From Mariniphaga sp. (GTDB taxonomy: Bacteria; Bacteroidota; Bacteroidia; Bacteroidales; Prolixibacteraceae), in the NCBI GenBank assembly GCA_025355585.1, contig JANXZJ010000128.1, forward strand, positions 1 to 32,801: a stretch of 32,801 nt of DNA, written 5' to 3'. The notes beneath the pieces were generated by a model. It did not search any database. It was not told the DNA's origin and saw only the letters and a program-made list of their open reading frames with translations. Positions within the stretch are counted from its first letter, which is position 1, and each line of letters begins with the position of its first letter. The position numbers and the translations under genes were made by a program. Positions 11,088 through 28,101 of this stretch are shown here, in pieces.

Positions 11088-11164
11088 TGGCTCCTCAGGT
11101 AGGACTTGAACCTACGACCTACGGATTAACAGTCCGCCGCTCTAACCAACTGAGCTACTAAGGA
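11088..11164 (-). tRNA. tRNA-Asn (anticodon GTT)
   Basis: On the minus strand the 77 bases fold as a full cloverleaf. The acceptor stem is TCCTTAG (11164-11158) with CTGAGGA, the D-arm is AGCTCAGTTGGTTAGAGC, the anticodon loop CTGTTAA carries GTT (complement at 11128-11130), and the T-arm is GTAGG-TTCAAGT-CCTAC. The discriminator is G, and the CCA end (11088-11090) is encoded. A TATTTTTG -7 box lies at 11217-11210 and a terminator follows directly, so it is an independent transcription unit. Confidence 0.97.
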
Positions 11165-20480: not shown

Positions 20481-21116
20481 ATGAAAAAAGAAGCTGCTAC
20501 AATGCACATCGCAATTGCCGGAAATATCGGGGCCGGGAAAACCACCCTTACGGGAATTCTAGCCAAACATTTCGGATGGGAAGCGCATTACGAAGAGGTG
20601 GACGGGAATCCATATCTGAATGATTTTTATCACGATATGCAGCGCTGGTCGTTCAATTTGCAGGTTTATTTCCTCAACAATCGGTTTAGTCAGATCATCG
20701 ATTTCCGCCATTCCGGCAAAACAGTGATTCAGGATCGTACGATTTATGAAGATGCCGAAATCTTTGCACCTAACCTTCACGAAATGGGTCTGATGAGTAC
20801 CCGCGATTTCGAGACCTATCACACGCTTTTCGACTTGATGGGAAAGTTGATTCAGGCTCCCGATCTCATTATTTATCTTCGTGCATCCATCCCAACGCTC
20901 GTTCAGCAAATTCAAAAAAGGGGGAGGGATTATGAAGAAACCATCCGGCTCGATTATCTGAAGCAACTGAACCAACGCTATGAAGCGTGGGCAACACGGT
21001 ATCATCTTGGCAAAATGCTGATTATAAATATTGACGAACTTAATTTTGCTGAAAATAAAGAAGACTTGAGTAAGGTGATCGACCGTATCGACGCCCAGCT
21101 GCACGGACTTTTTTAG
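20481..21116 (+). CDS. Deoxynucleoside kinase
   Basis: 211 residues, dNK family (deoxyadenosine/deoxyguanosine/thymidine kinase 2-like); phosphorylates deoxynucleosides for nucleotide salvage. The P-loop is GNIGAGKTT at residues 14-22 and the DRT/ERS-like motif (IQDRTIYEDAEIF) has Asp85-Arg86. The lid region RGRDYEE and the preceding YLRASIPTLVQQIQKR segment are typical. The start at 20481 adds MKKEAAT before the conserved MHIAIAGNIGAGK, so an alternative start at 20502 is possible. It lies 15 bases after the GH3-type gene, so cotranscription is likely. Confidence 0.92.
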   Translation: MKKEAATMHIAIAGNIGAGKTTLTGILAKHFGWEAHYEEVDGNPYLNDFYHDMQRWSFNLQVYFLNNRFSQIIDFRHSGKTVIQDRTIYEDAEIFAPNLHEMGLMSTRDFETYHTLFDLMGKLIQAPDLIIYLRASIPTLVQQIQKRGRDYEETIRLDYLKQLNQRYEAWATRYHLGKMLIINIDELNFAENKEDLSKVIDRIDAQLHGLF

Positions 21117-21211
21117 GTGGCAAGCTGAGTGTGAAAACAAGACAGCAAATTGATTTGTTTAGATTCTGTGTTGAATATTAGTTTTTTAGCACTGAAATAA
21201 TTTTATCTATC

Positions 21212-21316
21212 TAACCCCGTGTAAGCGATTGCAGAGCGCTTATTCCGGGGTCAGATATGCAGCACAATCAGGGTGCATCTGCAGGTAAATTGAAACGATT
21301 TCTCTGTATGCGCCAT
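21212..21316 (+). repeat. Two-hairpin element, copy A (upstream of hutH)
   Basis: About 100 bases. Hairpin 1 has outer stem ACCCCG (21214-21219)/CGGGGT (21246-21251) and inner stem TAAGCG (21222-21227)/CGCTTA (21237-21242). Hairpin 2 is GGTGCAT (21272-21278)/ATGCGCC (21308-21314), including a G-T wobble, with a 29-base loop containing TAAATTGAAA. Copy B at 26232-26335 shares the layout, spacing and conserved blocks. Confidence 0.7.
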
Positions 21317-21483
21317 TAATCGAAGCCTCTGCCATGTTCTAAGATAGCTAATTGGTTTAGAGATAGGAAAACGGGAAGAAAGTAAAAAAGAGATTATAAA
21401 CAAGATTTGTAAACGAATAGTGAAAAATAGTTGCTTCCTGTAAGCTTAAACCTTCTTTTTAACTACTTCAATAACATATTTAT

Positions 21484-21505
21484 AAGCCGGGTAATTCCGG
21501 CTTTT
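21484..21505 (+). terminator. Terminator-like hairpin upstream of hutH
   Basis: AAGCCGG (21484-21490), loop GTAATT, CCGGCTT (21497-21503), followed by TT. It ends 97 bases before the hutH ATG. It could end the upstream kinase transcript, or act as an attenuator in a hut leader that includes copy A. Confidence 0.6.
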
Positions 21506-21601
21506 GTCATTTGTAGATCTCTAAATAATTCGTAGGATTATGCCAGAATTGAACTGTTGCAAACTTGCGGCAAAATTCTAAACTAATACCTCTGGATTGT
21601 T

Positions 21602-23194
21602 ATGAAACAAATAGATAAAAAGAGCCGAAATTCCTTCTGTTTTGGTGAAGATACACTTACCGTTGGTTTGGCACTCCAAATGGCAGCCGGTAAAGTTGTC
21701 GGATCCATTGGTCCTTTGGCAACCGAAAGGATCGTGAAAAGCCGGAAAATCGTTGATGACATCGTCTCAAATCATGAAATAGTTTATGGCATCAATACCG
21801 GATTCGGTCCGCTTTGTACAACAATTATCTCGGAGGTTGATACCAAAAAACTTCAGCTTAACTTATTAAAGAGCCATAGTGTAGGAGTTGGTGATCCGAT
21901 TAGTCCCGGGATTGCCAAACTGATGATGATCCTCAAAGTACACGCATTGGCGAAAGGTTATTCGGGCATTGAAATGAAGACGCTTGAGAGGATTTTATGG
22001 CATATTAATCAGGATGTTATACCTGTTGTTCCATCTCAGGGTTCGGTTGGCGCTTCGGGAGATCTGGCACCGTTGGCCCATCTCTTTCTCCCGTTGACTG
22101 GTCTTGGAAAGGTTTATTACAAAGGTAAAGTGACCGAAATGGCTTATCTTTTAAATAAACTTGGAATGGCTCCTGTGGAACTTGGTGCCAAGGAAGGCCT
22201 TGCACTTATCAATGGTACTCAATTCATTGCAGCGCACGCTGTAAAGGTTATAGAGCGATTGCAGAACTGCCTCGATAACGCCGATTTAATTGCAGCCATG
22301 AACCTTGAGGCCATGTTAGGTTCAGTGAAAACCTTCTCTTCCGAATTGCATGACTTAAGGCCTTATCCGGGAATAATTTATGTGGCTGAACGCATGAGAA
22401 TGCTTATTGGAGAATCGGAGATTGTGCATTCACATAAAAACTGTTCACGACTTCAGGATCCCTATTCTTTGAGGTGCATTCCCCAGGTTCACGGAGCATC
22501 CCGAAATGCATGGCTTCACCTGAAAGAGCTGTTAAACATTGAGTTAAATTCGGTTACCGATAATCCGATTATTCTGGAGGATGGACGTTCGATCAGTGGC
22601 GGAAGTTTTCATGGACAGCCGTTGGCAATGGCGCTCGATTACGTCACCGTTGCAGCTGCAGAATTGGGGAACATTGCAGATCGTCGCATCTATTTGTCTC
22701 TCAATGATACAATTGAAGGTTTACCTAAACTGCTTATGCGCGAAACCGGGTTGAATTCCGGGTTTATGATTCCGCAATATACTACGGCCGCTTTGGTAAG
22801 CGAAAATAAAAGCTTGTGCTTTCCTGCAAGTGCCGACAGTATTCCTACCTCGTTAGGACAGGAAGATCATGTGAGCATGGGTTCGATCAGTGGCCGAAAA
22901 GCGCTGATGGTGATTGATAACCTTGAGAAAATACTGGGGATTGAACTTTTTTGCGCAGCACAGGGATTCGATTTCAGAAAACCACTCAAATCGGGCGGAA
23001 TTATCGATGCGTGTCATCGGTTTGTCAGACAGACCATTCCTTTTGCCGAATCGGATCACATCATGTCAGAAGAAATGAATAAGGCGATCGATCTTGTCAA
23101 AAATAAAACGTTGGTGACTGTTTCCGGAAATGCAGCTAAAAAATTGAAAATCAATCTTAAAAACGAGCAACATGAACTATTCGGAATTTATTAA
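21602..23194 (+). CDS. hutH: Histidine ammonia-lyase
   Basis: Removes ammonia from L-histidine to give trans-urocanate, the first step of histidine use. 530 residues, normal length. The self-formed MIO cofactor comes from Ala151-Ser152-Gly153 in [14 protein letters not shown]; Tyr62 in [11 protein letters not shown] is the active-site Tyr region. NGTQF (around 204-208), SVTDNP and the later QDHVSMGS block are further family landmarks. Its last 23 bases overlap the start of hutU, so the two are translationally linked. The gene lies downstream of the two-hairpin element copy A and a terminator-like hairpin. No HutC-type repressor gene is nearby. Confidence 0.97.
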
Positions 23195-24845
23195 AAAATA
23201 TGCCATCCATCCCAATTATAAAGCTCCGACAGGAAATGTGTTACATGCCAAATCGTGGCAGACGGAAGCACCTTTGCGGATGCTACTCAACAACCTCGAT
23301 CGCCAGGTAGCTGAAAATCCCGAAGAACTGGTGGTTTATGGCGGTACAGGCCAGGCAGCGCGGAACCCTGAAGCTTTGCTGCAGATCATTAAATGTCTGC
23401 TCGAACTGGATGAAGATCATAGTTTGTTGGTTCAATCTGGCAAAGCAGTAGGTATTGTCAGAACCCACCCCGAAGCTCCCAGGGTTTTTATTGCAAACAG
23501 CAACCTTGTTCCGGCCTGGGCGACGTGGGATCATTTCGAAAAACTGAAAACCGAAGGGTTAATGATGTATGGCCAGATGACAGCCGGAAGCTGGATATAT
23601 ATTGGAACACAGGGAATTCTGCAGGGAACATACGAGACGTTTGTAGCCTGTGGCGAGAAATATTTCAAGGGTGACCTGAAACATAAATTGCTTGTTTCCG
23701 GTGGACTAGGCGGAATGGGCGGAGCCCAGCCTTTGGCCGCAACAATGGCCGGAGCAACATTTCTTGGTGTCGATATAGATCCCGAGCGCATAAAAAAGAG
23801 GTTAAACTCGGGATATATTGACCATATTTCTTATTCCTATGATGAGGCGATTGCTTTGGTTATGAATGCAAAAGAAAAAGGCAAGGCCATTTCTGTCGGG
23901 CTGGTGGCTGATATTGGTGATACGCTCGAACAGTTGCTGATTGACGGAATCGTTCCCGATGTTGTTACCGATCAGACTTCTGCCCATGACCCTTTGCATG
24001 GATATGTACCGAACGATCTTACGTTGCTCCAGGCAAAGGCGCTTCGGAAAGATGATCCGGAAAAATACAAGGAATTGTCGATGAAGAGCATGGCGCGACA
24101 TGTCAGTTTGATGCTCGAAATGCAGCGACAGGGGAGTATTGTGTTCGATTATGGAAATAACCTTCGCGAAATGGCCAGACAAGGTGGCGAAATGAATGCC
24201 TTTGACTTCAACGGGTTTATTCCTGAATTTATCCGTCCGCTCTTTTGTGAAGGAAAAGGACCTTTTCGTTGGGTCGCATTATCGGGTGATCCTGAAGATA
24301 TCCGAACAACCGATCGCGCGTTGATTGACGCATTTCCTGAAAACAAACATATAATCAGCTGGTTACAGAAGGCTGAATCGGGCGTTGAATTTCAGGGGCT
24401 GCCGGCAAGGATTTGCTGGCTGGGAATGGGCGAGCGCGAAAAAGCCGGAGTAATTTTCAATAACCTTGTGAAAGAGGGAAAGGTAAAAGCCCCAATAGTA
24501 ATTGGGCGCGACCATCTCGATTGCGGATCAGTGGCGTCACCCAACCGTGAGACCGAAAAAATGATGGATGGAAGTGATACCGTTTCAGACTGGCCGCTGT
24601 TGAATTTGATGGCCAATACAGGTGGCGGTGCAACCTGGGTCTCCTTCCATCACGGCGGAGGAGTCGGTATGGGCTATTCACAACATGCAGGTATGGTAGT
24701 TGTTGCTGATGGAACCGAAAGGGCTGATGCCTGTATCCGTCGGGTGTTGTACAACGATCCCGCAATGGGAATATTCAGGCACAACGATGCCGGATATCCT
24801 GAAGCGCAGCAGAATTTGAAGAAATTTGATCTTGGTTTTAAATGA
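23172..24845 (+). CDS. hutU: Urocanate hydratase
   Basis: Adds water to urocanate to form 4-imidazolone-5-propionate using tightly bound NAD+ as electrophile. 557 residues, near the usual ~550. Landmarks: YGGTGQAAR at residues 56-64, the Gly-rich NAD-binding [13 protein letters not shown] (around 176-188), [14 protein letters not shown], the active-site Cys region [16 protein letters not shown], and [13 protein letters not shown] near the C-terminus. The ATG at 23172 lies inside the hutH end (23-base overlap in another frame). It gives the standard N-terminus, so the overlap is accepted as real. Followed by hutI after 59 bases. Confidence 0.97.
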
Positions 24846-24904
24846 AATAAGGATTCCGGAAGATTGGAATCTTTGATAACAGCTTATTCAGTCAATTGTA
24901 AACC

Positions 24905-26143
24905 ATGCTTAAAGCTAAAATAATCGGTCCCTTTTCCCAGCTTTTAACGATGGACAATATTCCGTTGAAAGGTAGTGTGAATGACACCCAACTTGAAATC
25001 ATTCTGAATGGTGGGGTAATTGTCTGCGATGGAAAAATAGTGAAAATCGGGAATTTCGATCAGCTTTGTTTCGAGGTCGGAGATTTGGATATTGAACGTA
25101 TTGAAAAAGATATGGTTGCAATGCCGGGAATGATAGATCCGCACACCCATATTTGCTGGGCAGGAAGCAGGGCAAAGGATTATGCGCTCCGGTTAGCCGG
25201 GAAAAGTTACCTTGAAATTGCGCAGAGCGGAGGTGGAATAGGCGATACGGTGGCAAAAACAAGGACTGCAAGTGCAAACGAACTTGAAGCAATGCTTACT
25301 CAACGAGCAACTAATCATCTCCTTAATGGAATTACTACTATTGAAGTAAAAAGTGGCTATTGTTTAAACACCGAAGGCGAGATTAAATTGCTTGAAGTAA
25401 TTCGGAATGTAAATCAAAAACTCCCGGTTGATCTTATCGCTACTTGTCTGGCAGCTCACATAAAGCCTGTTGACTTTATAGGCAGTTCCACGGATTATTT
25501 GAAAATAGTTGTTAGTGAATTGCTTCCTGAAGTAATGAAACGGAATCTTTCCAATCGGGTAGATATCTATATTGACAATGGGGCATTTACAAAAGGCGAA
25601 GCAAGAATATATCTTAACAATGCAAAGAATTTAGGGTTTGATCTGGCTGTTCATGGTGAGCAGTTCCAGGCTGGCGGGGTTTCATTGGCCTGCGAGTTGA
25701 GTGCTCTTTCTGTTGATCATCTTGAAATGGTTCAGGATCAGGAAATCAAAATGCTGGCGGCGTCTAAGGTGATTCCGATTGTCCTTCCAGGTGCTTCGCT
25801 GGGTTTAGGCTGTCAGTTTGCCCCGGCCCGGAAGCTTTTGGATGCAGGTTGTTCGCTTGCTGTTGGTTCTGACTGGAATCCGGGTTCGGCCCCAATGGGC
25901 GATCTTTTATTACAAACCGCAATTTTGGGTATCTTTGAGAAAATGACCATGGCTGAATCGTTGGCTGGCATCACTTTTAGAGCGGCGGCCGCACTTGGTT
26001 TGACTGACCGTGGCATTTTAAGAAATGGTTTACTGGCAGATATGATCGGTTTTCCGACCTCCGATTACCGCGAAATACTTTATAACCAGGGAAGTTTAAA
26101 ACCTTCAATGGTTTGGAAAAGGGGAGAAATTGTGAAGGGGTGA
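24905..26143 (+). CDS. hutI: Imidazolonepropionase
   Basis: Hydrolyses 4-imidazolone-5-propionate to N-formimino-L-glutamate, the third step of the pathway. 412 residues, amidohydrolase superfamily. Metal ligands are visible as His80 and His82 (MIDPHTHICWAG), His250 (AVHGEQF) and Asp323 (VGSDWNPGSAP). The substrate loop RLAGKSYLEIAQSGGGI (96-112) is typical of HutI. It is third in the hutH-hutU-hutI order with a 59-base gap upstream. It is followed by a weak hairpin at 26207-26223 and the two-hairpin element copy B before ftcD. Confidence 0.96.
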   Translation: MLKAKIIGPFSQLLTMDNIPLKGSVNDTQLEIILNGGVIVCDGKIVKIGNFDQLCFEVGDLDIERIEKDMVAMPGMIDPHTHICWAGSRAKDYALRLAGKSYLEIAQSGGGIGDTVAKTRTASANELEAMLTQRATNHLLNGITTIEVKSGYCLNTEGEIKLLEVIRNVNQKLPVDLIATCLAAHIKPVDFIGSSTDYLKIVVSELLPEVMKRNLSNRVDIYIDNGAFTKGEARIYLNNAKNLGFDLAVHGEQFQAGGVSLACELSALSVDHLEMVQDQEIKMLAASKVIPIVLPGASLGLGCQFAPARKLLDAGCSLAVGSDWNPGSAPMGDLLLQTAILGIFEKMTMAESLAGITFRAAAALGLTDRGILRNGLLADMIGFPTSDYREILYNQGSLKPSMVWKRGEIVKG

Positions 26144-26206
26144 CTTTGAGAGGGAGTAAGATAGAGACTTAGAGAAGGAATCCATAATTTATTGACATAT
26201 AGGTCA

Positions 26207-26230
26207 TAACACTGAAAGTGTTAAATTTTA
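26207..26230 (+). terminator. Weak terminator candidate after hutI
   Basis: TAACACT (26207-26213), loop GAA, AGTGTTA (26217-26223), then AATTTTA. The short AT-rich stem and broken T-run make it a weak candidate. Read-through into ftcD is likely. Confidence 0.35.
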
Positions 26231-26231
26231 A

Positions 26232-26335
26232 TAACCCCGGGTAAGGAGGAACGACGCAACCCGGAGTGAAAATAAAGGATAGACTTAAGGCGCATCTGGA
26301 TGGCTAAATTGAAATATTAAAGTTGTATGCGCCGC
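26232..26335 (+). repeat. Two-hairpin element, copy B (upstream of ftcD)
   Basis: About 100 bases. Hairpin 1 is ACCCCGGGT (26234-26242)/ACCCGGAGT (26259-26267), with one mismatch. Hairpin 2 is GGCGCAT (26289-26295)/ATGCGCC (26327-26333), perfect, with a 31-base loop containing TAAATTGAAA. From hairpin 1 start to hairpin 2 end is 100 bases, against 101 in copy A. It ends about 80 bases before the ftcD ATG, same strand. Confidence 0.7.
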
Positions 26336-26415
26336 AAATTGAAATTTAGGATAAGTTTAAAGCTATAAATATCAGAACGAAGTAGTTTATTAGAAAATAG
26401 ATATAAGATTTAATT

Positions 26416-28101
26416 ATGAAGCAACTAATCGAATGCGTCCCAAATTTTTCAGAAGGGCGTGATCTTTCAATTATAAAGCAAATAACCGATGTCATCGAAA
26501 GTGTTAATGGGATCAGGCTGCTGAATGTCGATCCGGGTTATGCGACAAACCGGACGGTCGTTACTTTCGTGGGTGAACCTGAGCAGGTTGTCGATGCTGC
26601 TTTCAGGGCGATTCAACGGGCTTCAGAACTGATTGATATGCGGTATCACAAAGGTGAACATCCCCGGTTTGGTGCGACGGATGTCTGTCCGTTTATACCG
26701 GTGTCGGATATCACAATGGAAGAGACCATTGAATATGCCCGGCTTTTGGCAAAACGAGTTGGAAACCAATTAAATATTCCGGTCTATTGTTACGAATTTG
26801 CTGCCTTTGAGGAGAAACGTCAGAGTTTGGCAAGTTGTCGTGCCGGTGAATACGAAGGGTTGGCGGAGAAGATGAAAACGGCTGAATGGCAACCCGATTT
26901 CGGTCCGTCGACTTTTAACGAACGTTCCGGGGCAACAGCTATCGGGGCAAGAAATTTCCTGATTGCTTACAACGTTAATTTGAATACAACCTCGGTGCGG
27001 CTGGCAAATTCGATTGCTTTTGATATCCGTGAAGCAGGCCGTATCAAGAGGGAAGGTGATCCCATCACAGGAAAAATCATCGTGGACGAACATGGCGAGC
27101 CTGTAAGGATTCCGGGGACATTGAAAAAAGTGAGGGCCATCGGGTGGTTTATAAAGGAATATGGGATTGCACAAATATCTATTAATCTGACAGATATTAC
27201 GACAACTTCTGTCCACCAGGCTTTTGATGAGGTGTGCGAAAGAGCGCATGACCGTGGAATCCGTGTTACTGGTTCGGAGTTAATTGGGATGATCCCATTG
27301 CAGGCGATGCTCGATGCCGGAAAATATTTTCTCCAAAAGCAGCACCGGTCTGTTGGAATTCCCGATCACGAAATTATTAGGATTGCTGTGAAATCTTTGG
27401 GACTTGACGAATTGGCACCCTTCGATCCCGATAAGAGAATCATTGAATATTTTCTTAAAGATAAAGGCAGTAAGCTGATTGATTTATCATTGACTGATTT
27501 TGTCCACGAAACAGCCTCTGATTCACCTGCTCCGGGTGGTGGTTCTGTTGCCGCTTATGTAGGTGCGATGGGTGTAGCGCTGGGTTCAATGGTTGCTAAT
27601 CTGACATCGCATAAAAGGGGATGTGACGATCGATGGGAGGAATTTTCCGTGTGGGCCGAAAAAGGAAAGGTGATATATGAAGAATTGTTGAAGCTGGTTG
27701 ATAAAGATACAGAAGCTTTTAATCAGATAATGGAGGCTTTCAAATTGTCAAAAGAAACACCAGTTGAGATTGCTGCCCGGAAGAGTGCCATTCAGGCGGC
27801 TACGAAAAATGCAATTGAAATACCGTTTAGAGTGATGCAAATCTCCTATGATTCAATGGAAATAATTGAGGCAATGGCAGAAATTGGGAATCCAAATTCA
27901 GTGACCGATGCAGGAGTCGGGGCATTGTGTGCAGTAACCGCGGTATCGGGTGCATACCTCAATGTTTTGGTCAATGCCAAAAGTTTCAACGATCAGGAGG
28001 CGATTCAGACGATTATGAATGAAGCTGGTACAATAGAAGTTCAGGCTAAAAACCGCTGCGAGAAGATTCAATCCATCGTCAGGAAAAAACTTGATATTTG
28101 A
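26416..28101 (+). CDS. ftcD: Bifunctional glutamate formimidoyltransferase/formimidoyl-THF cyclodeaminase
   Basis: 561 residues, two enzymes in one chain. The N-terminal domain (about 1-325, opening MKQLIECVPNFSEGRD, with YHKGEHPRFGATDVCPF) moves the formimino group from formiminoglutamate to tetrahydrofolate, releasing glutamate. The C-terminal cyclodeaminase (about 353-560, opening LTDFVHETASDSPAPGGGSVAAYVGAMG) releases ammonia and leaves 5,10-methenyl-THF. Length and order match vertebrate-like FTCD, also known in Bacteroidota. It closes the pathway, so no hutG or hutF is needed. It is separated from hutI by 272 bases holding copy B, so it may have its own promoter or leader. Confidence 0.96.
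   Translation: MKQLIECVPNFSEGRDLSIIKQITDVIESVNGIRLLNVDPGYATNRTVVTFVGEPEQVVDAAFRAIQRASELIDMRYHKGEHPRFGATDVCPFIPVSDITMEETIEYARLLAKRVGNQLNIPVYCYEFAAFEEKRQSLASCRAGEYEGLAEKMKTAEWQPDFGPSTFNERSGATAIGARNFLIAYNVNLNTTSVRLANSIAFDIREAGRIKREGDPITGKIIVDEHGEPVRIPGTLKKVRAIGWFIKEYGIAQISINLTDITTTSVHQAFDEVCERAHDRGIRVTGSELIGMIPLQAMLDAGKYFLQKQHRSVGIPDHEIIRIAVKSLGLDELAPFDPDKRIIEYFLKDKGSKLIDLSLTDFVHETASDSPAPGGGSVAAYVGAMGVALGSMVANLTSHKRGCDDRWEEFSVWAEKGKVIYEELLKLVDKDTEAFNQIMEAFKLSKETPVEIAARKSAIQAATKNAIEIPFRVMQISYDSMEIIEAMAEIGNPNSVTDAGVGALCAVTAVSGAYLNVLVNAKSFNDQEAIQTIMNEAGTIEVQAKNRCEKIQSIVRKKLDI

Follow-up and report, generated by a model that had tools for sequence, protein, structure and literature searches.

The contig JANXZJ010000128.1 of Mariniphaga sp. 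(Prolixibacteraceae; assembly GCA_025355585.1), taken here over its 32,801 nucleotides and called the window, carries two copies of a palindromic element in its hut locus, copy A (21214-21314) upstream of hutH and copy B (26234-26333) upstream of ftcD. The element is a repeat of modular build that lies mostly in sense orientation between co-directional genes and is patchily present at orthologous sites, and we regard it with high confidence as a dispersed repeat rather than a hut-specific RNA. Taken as a whole, we lean slightly towards reading these copies as repeats of the repetitive extragenic palindrome (REP) type that would be spread by Y1 (HUH, histidine-hydrophobic-histidine) transposases and kept as transcribed intercistronic hairpins.

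Both copies lie on the same strand and span 101 (A) and 100 (B) bases from first to last stem, and sequence and alignment bear out the shared blocks that the original prediction, made from the letters of the window, had described for them. Its second stem (here HP2, for hairpin 2), GGTGCAT/ATGCGCC with one G-U pair in copy A and GGCGCAT/ATGCGCC in copy B, agrees with the sequence, and its first stem (HP1) does pair in both copies, with one mismatch in copy B; the description of a two-hairpin element was right about these two hairpins and overlooked a third, HP0, lying 5' of HP1. The parts of the two copies are as follows, where R1 is an HP2 model built from five sequences, copies A and B among these:

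21190..21197, forward strand: copy A, HP0 remnant CACTGAAA with its partner arm lost (alignment with copy B and other genomic copies)
21214..21251, forward strand: copy A, HP1, ACCCCG/CGGGGT with inner stem TAAGCG/CGCTTA (sequence and fold)
21272..21314, forward strand: copy A, HP2, stem GGTGCAT/ATGCGCC with loop motif TTGAAA (R1 match)
26208..26222, forward strand: copy B, HP0 AACACTGAAAGTGTT, followed by the tail AAATTTTAATAA (sequence; the module recurs in other copies)
26234..26267, forward strand: copy B, HP1, ACCCCGGGT/ACCCGGAGT with one mismatch (sequence and fold)
26289..26333, forward strand: copy B, HP2, stem GGCGCAT/ATGCGCC with loop motif TTGAAA (R1 match)
26334..26344, forward strand: copy B, 3' box GCAAATTGAAA after HP2 (its GCA is conserved in column counts over 133 distinct HP2 copies)

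R1 matched copy A at 21269-21316 (58.4 bits, E 1.8e-10) and copy B at 26286-26335 (64.1 bits, E 6.5e-12), each being among its source sequences. In folding energy, copy A stands far above its shuffles (z −4.2; none of 200 equals it), which copy B does not (z −0.7; 48 of 200 equal it). Within the 4.09-Mb, 84%-complete genome that carries the window, the strict pattern TAAATTGAAA..TGTATGCGCC was found only at copies A and B, with none for the reversed-pattern control, so the likeness of the two is not due to chance.

Structurally, copies printed side by side show a full unit that reads, 5' to 3', HP0, an AATATT.GTAG-like tail or AATATnAATAA, HP1, about 20 A-rich bases, HP2 and GCA, with HP1 built on the stem CCCCGGGT/ACCCGGGG, HP2 on GGCGCAT/ATGCGCC around TTGAAA, and HP0 exemplified by CCCTGAAAGGG and CTCCGGAGGAG; in these copies neither HP0 nor HP2 is an inverted form of the other. 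Among the 133 distinct HP2 copies, HP1 lies within 140 nucleotides (nt) upstream in 86, the GTAG tail (AATATT[TG]GTAG, at most one mismatch) in 14, both in 3 and neither in 36, most of which by eye have another palindrome in that position. The HP1 pattern gave 47 matches in 8 of 9 genomes with both strands counted (reversed-pattern control, 0), and across 31 distinct HP1 contexts from loci of these genomes it is followed by HP2 in 20, by the unrelated hairpin CCGTCCG/CGGACGG at equal distance in 8, and by neither in 3, of which two are the reverse reading of the palindromic HP1 and one holds a decayed HP2. At the era-der site, the 5' module is changed in one genome (G070), with HP2 and the sequence 3' of it retained. 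Since HP1 occurs with alternative 3' hairpins and HP2 with alternative 5' palindromes, the unit is modular at both ends: the 5' part and HP2 are each exchangeable for unrelated hairpins. Four loci of one genome (G056: L221, L228, L235 and L242), which has no R1 match at E ≤ 0.1, show HP1 followed by the CCGTCCG/CGGACGG family.

Around the sequence-conserved HP2 stem, the loop TTGAAA, the 3' GCA and a 5' AA are conserved, and pair 3 of the stem is C-G in 122 of the 133 copies against T-A in 4, T-G in 5 and C-A in 1. Minimum-energy folding of the 5' part discriminates weakly, as all 133 real sequences and 127 of their 133 shuffles reach −10 kcal/mol (medians −23.0 and −16.1). Two other identities were dropped by eye: an integron attC site, since the terminal boxes of such sites are absent, and a promoter inside HP2, whose spacing does not match the consensus.

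Genomically, the element is scattered. In its own genome, R1 found 11 places at E ≤ 0.001, and relaxing the threshold to 0.1 gave 22 and to 1 gave 24; across the family, 61 of 140 genomes (12 of 23 genera) match at E ≤ 0.1, a threshold at which, with E-values given per genome, about 14 of the 140 could match by chance, and 43 of 140 match at E ≤ 0.001 when counted by eye. The most places in any of the 140 was 22, under stricter filters than those of the own-genome search. When 395 genomes were drawn from the phylum (kinship not listed for 374), only the own genome matched at E ≤ 0.001 and the other 394 had no R1 match, so R1 rarely hits by chance; the element has so far been seen only in one bacterial family, the Prolixibacteraceae. 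Functionally, the genes beside the own-genome copies are mixed by Pfam (36 proteins scanned, 5 without a match), comprising ABC proteins, an SpoU methylase, MarC, CstA, glycoside hydrolases, PhoH, UvrB, acetate kinase, PhoU with a phosphate-binding-type protein, an isopropylmalate/citramalate-synthase-like protein with LeuB, and others. A dispersed mobile-type repeat was the alternative that the original prediction had offered, and it proved largely right, the search beyond hut with the HP2 model having found scattered copies beside genes of unrelated function, at orthologous sites that are patchily occupied; where it falls short is that sense orientation and conserved stems exceed what a passive repeat easily explains. 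HP2 also forms tandem arrays, of four units in one genome (L166, G069:C2) and three in another (L167, G018:C121), spaced about 218-244 bp apart.

Most HP2 copies are intercistronic and sense-oriented to both neighbours. We scored 124 copies (21 own, plus 43 and 60 from other genomes, orthologues in related genomes included) against open reading frames (ORFs) called by length with a simple caller rather than a gene finder, and 105 of them had both flanking genes called and HP2 outside any ORF; 89 of these run along both genes ('+|+') and 3 against both ('-|-'), with 8 convergent and 5 divergent. The remaining 19 either overlap a called ORF (16; 11 on the same strand, 5 on the opposite) or have a flank missing (3). 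The own genome alone gave 14 '+|+' to 1 '-|-', or 15 to 1 on a recount that added the second L150 unit and left out L156. In the 89 '+|+' copies, the median distance is 65 nt from the HP2 end to the next start and 162 nt from the previous stop to HP2. For comparison, 23 FtcD loci held 84 gaps of 150 bp or more, of which 48 were tandem, 10 convergent and 26 divergent. Palindromes with the GTAG tail served as a control: those scored without HP2 lay 14 with and 11 against their neighbours, 7 in convergent and 7 in divergent gaps, 4 in ORFs and 3 with a flank missing, and 17 scored with HP2 lay 11 with, 2 against, 3 convergent and 1 divergent. Five of the 17 HP2 calls (L257, L341, both at L342, and L344+), both 'against' cases included, looked false on inspection, and moving them gives 9 with and 0 against in the presence of HP2 versus 16 with and 13 against in its absence, a control weakened by the many palindromes in it that flank Y1 genes.

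Y1 transposases (PF01797) occurred in 12 of 12 genomes searched, and 27 of 30 Y1 loci fetched encode the motif Y---Q--HH, which would place these putative partner proteins, by motif only, in subclass 1.2. The flanks of 50 distinct Y1 genes, 48,350 bp together, held 38 matches to ATATT.GTAG, with at least one at 19 of the genes (many of the 50 loci were fetched as relatives of one protein, at L200, and are not independent), and a comparison set of 126,334 bp from 29 HutH loci held none. Downstream of the L200 gene itself (G045) lie two inverted HP0-type palindromes and, further on, a full HP0 plus HP2 (51.4 bits), and upstream of it lies HP0 with a weak HP2 (15.3 bits, E 0.25); another Y1 gene, in a second genome (G119), is preceded by HP2 at a distance of about 900 bp. 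Because many Y1 genes are flanked by palindromes with the same tail, we consider it reasonably probable that the repeat is spread by Y1 transposases, and, HP2 being rare at Y1 genes, it is chiefly the HP0-type palindromes with their tail that suggest this link. Among the loci seen, L190, L208, L211, L248, L253 and others have Y---Q--HH Y1 genes flanked by GGTGCAGCGCACC-type palindromes with a ATATTTGTAG tail. Two more (L342 and L344) hold symmetric units, each a palindrome with a GTAG tail, about 24 nt, a long central hairpin and an inverted palindrome, which are likely Y1-derived miniature inverted-repeat transposable elements (MITEs).

Evolutionarily, 137 copies yielded 127 non-independent pairs from different genomes with both coding flanks homologous, and over these pairs the HP2 stem was 96.2% identical (1778 sites), its loop 73.6%, the 20-nt spacer 72.9%, the next 48 bases 72.6% and the coding flanks 85%, the stem value being biased upward since detection needs a good stem, and some pairs matching different units of one array. 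A less biased sample took the downstream gene as query and the best 30 loci for each. At era-der, 7 of 30 loci carry the element (7 of 21 in genus g18, the main carrier genus, and 0 of 9 outside it), with HP2 arms at most one mismatch from the pattern, and the other 23 have no recognisable HP2, tags with 3-4 substitutions being chance matches that were not scored as carriers. At leuB it is present in 2 of 27 loci examined, the own genome and G116 (L369, L375 and L377 were left out of the 30, and the carriers L131 in G063 and L125 in G047 are outside the fetched set). Placing the 7 carriers on a der tree of 23 genomes takes 6 changes, a number as low as in 313 of 500 shuffles. Copies at era-der and leuB are thus mostly intact or gone, and with carriers scattered on the der tree this points to scattered gain and loss at the sites examined. 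One orthologue (G066) has a paired change in place, GGTGCAT/ATGCACC, where the others have GGCGCAT/ATGCGCC. By eye, the intergenic contents of the era-der gap alternate, and the gap seems to be a hot spot for repeats. The element-less gaps of L382, L384, L388, L396 and L398 hold other palindromes of the GCCCCTCCC..GGGAGGG type.

We therefore favour, as a reading rather than a result, a REP-type dispersed repeat of exchangeable hairpins (HP0 with its tail, HP1, about 20 nt, and HP2), with about 20 copies in the genome, whose hairpins would be spread in trans by IS200-like Y1 transposases with the motif Y---Q--HH. With less certainty, copies may persist mainly where they are transcribed in the sense direction, a folded RNA between two cistrons being tolerated or even useful, for example as a barrier to processing or decay that would separate the fates of the upstream and downstream messages. 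As sense orientation and stem conservation go beyond a passive repeat, we put a gene-unspecific role at the RNA level at a little short of an even prospect, judging from sequence. Intercistronic REPs of the malE-malF type act on mRNA stability, and the element is like them in placing hairpins between operon genes regardless of gene function, and unlike them in its strong orientation and its sequence-conserved HP2.

Several observations pull the other way. Before HP1, most copies have AATAA and not GTAG, and some 22 copies are few for REPs. An R1 match was found in the flanks of only 1 of 30 Y1 loci in a first set, and a second set of 30 added the L200 locus again and no other, so a Y1 gene as the transposase of HP2 itself is a candidate pairing. 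HP2 gains no stability from being read in sense: 58 copies are more stable on that strand and 75 on the antisense strand. Besides the two biases on the stem identities given above, orthologous sites include broken pairs, one in HP2 in G064 and one in HP1 in G071. Finally, among sites lacking the element none gave a base-exact junction on which a target-site duplication could be read: the flanks of the tmk-hutH and hutI-ftcD gaps are too diverged for one, the extra unit of the G018 array replaces other sequence without a clean insertion, and the era-der intergenic region differs throughout between carriers and non-carriers.

Against known systems, the element has the short imperfect palindromes dispersed in intergenic space that define REPs, and at 22-24 places in its own genome it differs from them in copy number, which for REPs is usually over 100 per genome according to PMC2817692. 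According to PMC3733652, PMC2817692 and PMC6006769, REPs and bacterial interspersed mosaic elements (BIMEs) with their REP-associated tyrosine transposases (RAYTs, or TnpA-REP) are likewise extragenic and modular, found chiefly in gaps between genes of one direction and seldom in divergent ones; some copies of the element have GTAG beside a palindrome, and many local Y1 genes are flanked by GTAG-tail palindromes. Unlike REPs and BIMEs, it is a three-hairpin unit with a frequent fixed 3' hairpin and a strong sense orientation, its tail lies 3' of HP0 (hairpin-AATATT.GTAG) instead of forming a 5' foot, and its candidate Y1 proteins carry Y---Q--HH, which corresponds to subclass 1.2, for which the REP column of Table 1 in Quentin et al. 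2018 (PMC6006769) gives 'no'. The genome-distribution section of PMC3733652 describes for REPs a tandem excess and a divergent deficit, which the element resembles, and that section reports no strand-locking. REPINs and Y1-derived MITEs (PMC3116915) share with the element a non-autonomous unit with at least two palindromes, and symmetric REP(+)-hairpin-REP(-) units are present at L342 and L344; the unit of the window is asymmetric, with HP0 and HP2 unrelated in sequence. The RNA candidates from human microbiomes described in PMC8040213, several of them in Bacteroidetes, resemble the element in being palindromic, and for 20 of them the authors allow for REPs or for a different kind of structured RNA. 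In the portions of PMC12306157 (RepRanger) used, whose table holds three Bacteroidota species, we found no mention of Prolixibacter or of orientation, and none of Bacteroid in those of PMC2817692; among the papers that searches of an open-access library turned up, we recognised no description of the element. The question of RNA-level action by REP-type repeats, which PMC3733652 raises, is an old one, and the sense orientation of 89 of 92 tandem cases, set beside GTAG-tail palindromes of the same genomes that are unbiased without the third hairpin, makes it directly testable in cultured carriers. The Y---Q--HH transposases, listed without REPs, gain in turn a candidate palindrome partner.

Other accounts of the same observations differ in how they explain the orientation. 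A passive mobile repeat without host function, whose terminator-like antisense copies are lost inside operons, strikes us as rather doubtful, even though in 103 of 133 copies five or more of the 8 bases preceding HP2 are A (a U-tract in antisense RNA) and the era-der carriers are spread over the der tree. The bias is just as strong where the A-run is missing (22 '+|+' to 1 '-|-', against 75 to 2 with it), so a terminator-like antisense strand is an insufficient explanation, and purging of antisense terminators as the sole cause of orientation was rejected; antisense copies would also be expected to survive at operon ends, yet '-|-' copies are rare, and the stems look conserved at orthologous sites, albeit with the bias of detection. 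The converse, an intrinsic terminator on the sense strand, was rejected too, as 0 of 133 copies have at least five T in the 8 bases after HP2.

Closer to the reading we favour, the element could be a strand-locked mobile operon element, that is, hairpin cassettes that little-studied HUH enzymes of subclass 1.2 carry into gaps between operon genes, there selected as transcribed RNA parts that separate the expression of cistrons and with their 5' and 3' hairpins exchanged, a version that we entertain only tentatively. Alternatively, an RNA-binding protein or RNase could recognise the element specifically in sense transcripts, across a regulon of unrelated genes, which seems about equally unlikely. 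This would fit the sense orientation, the short median distance from HP2 to the next start, and the conserved loop, GCA and AA around the stem, and at HP2 pairs 9 and 10 pairing is kept by G-U (87) over A-C (16), which points to the sense strand. The seven-bp stem, though, has no strand preference (10 G-U, 8 A-C), the variants at pairs 9 and 10 may be two lineages rather than many events, and 14 of the 21 genomes of the main carrier genus are without the element at era-der. Less probable again is transcription-linked insertion, by the transposase, of the top strand into the single-stranded non-template strand of transcribed regions, which would give sense copies without selection; 97 of the 105 scored copies share the direction of the gene upstream (89 '+|+' plus 8 '+|-'), but the GTAG-tail palindromes without HP2 are unbiased (14 against 11), in a control made imperfect by the many that flank Y1 genes.

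The genes flanking the two copies are the following:

20481..21116, forward strand: dTMP-kinase-like gene 5' of copy A (below the curated cut-off)
21502..21532, forward strand: promoter-like motif TTTTG-N19-TAATTCG between copy A and hutH (nine-row tmk-hutH alignment)
21602..23194, forward strand: hutH, 3' of copy A (TIGR01225)
24905..26143, forward strand: hutI, 5' of copy B (TIGR01224)
26416..28101, forward strand: ftcD, 3' of copy B, coding for FtcD with a cyclohydrolase-like domain (TIGR02024 over its cut-off; the second domain matches NF045657 below cut-off)

The gene order olsH-like, tmk-like, hutH, hutU, hutI, ftcD is kept in close relatives whose loci reach that far, the nearest named one being Mariniphaga sp. 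isolate Bin2_8 (L033; HutH 95.8% identical). For HutH, 44 of 60 family genomes matched at E ≤ 1e-100 and 30 loci were fetched, FtcD gave 80 loci from named genomes, and the R1 scan at E ≤ 1 covered 53 loci (15 HutH, 38 FtcD) out of 112. Only 1 of these 53 has HP2 before a hut gene (Bin2_8, before hutH), and none has it before ftcD; another relative (L043) has two HP2 copies about 3 kb past ftcD. A whole-copy profile of A and B, run over all 112 loci at E ≤ 0.5, found the own copies, Bin2_8 and L043 only. In one relative (L036), the hutI-ftcD gap that holds copy B here carries a different REP-like palindrome with a GTAG tail and a weak HP2-like hairpin, seen by regular expression and absent from the R1 matches.

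Upstream of hutH, TAATTCG is present in 8 of the 9 rows of the tmk-hutH alignment, and TTTTG, 19 bases further upstream, in 6 of 9 (TTTTA in 3), two of the nine rows (L004 and L035) being one genome. We take this motif, by the Bacteroidota promoter consensus, to be the likely hutH promoter, and since it lies downstream of copy A, that copy is probably outside the hutH leader.

We give almost no credence to a hut-specific cis-regulatory RNA, a riboswitch or leader that couples ftcD to hutHUI, which the original prediction had put forward on the strength of two same-strand copies flanking hut genes and each foldable as two hairpins: some 20 further copies lie at genes of unrelated function, the genes downstream share no pathway, HP2 precedes a hut gene in only 1 of the 53 relatives' loci scanned with R1, copy A sits upstream of the promoter-like motif, and neither copy matches any Rfam family at the gathering score. 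The genome-wide copies already refute a hut-specific device, and the statement that the hut locus alone carries the element is true of the window and not of the genome. Relaxed Rfam searches around both copies gave matches far below gathering scores. The sole Rfam match at gathering score in the window is a tRNA gene at 11091-11164 on the minus strand.

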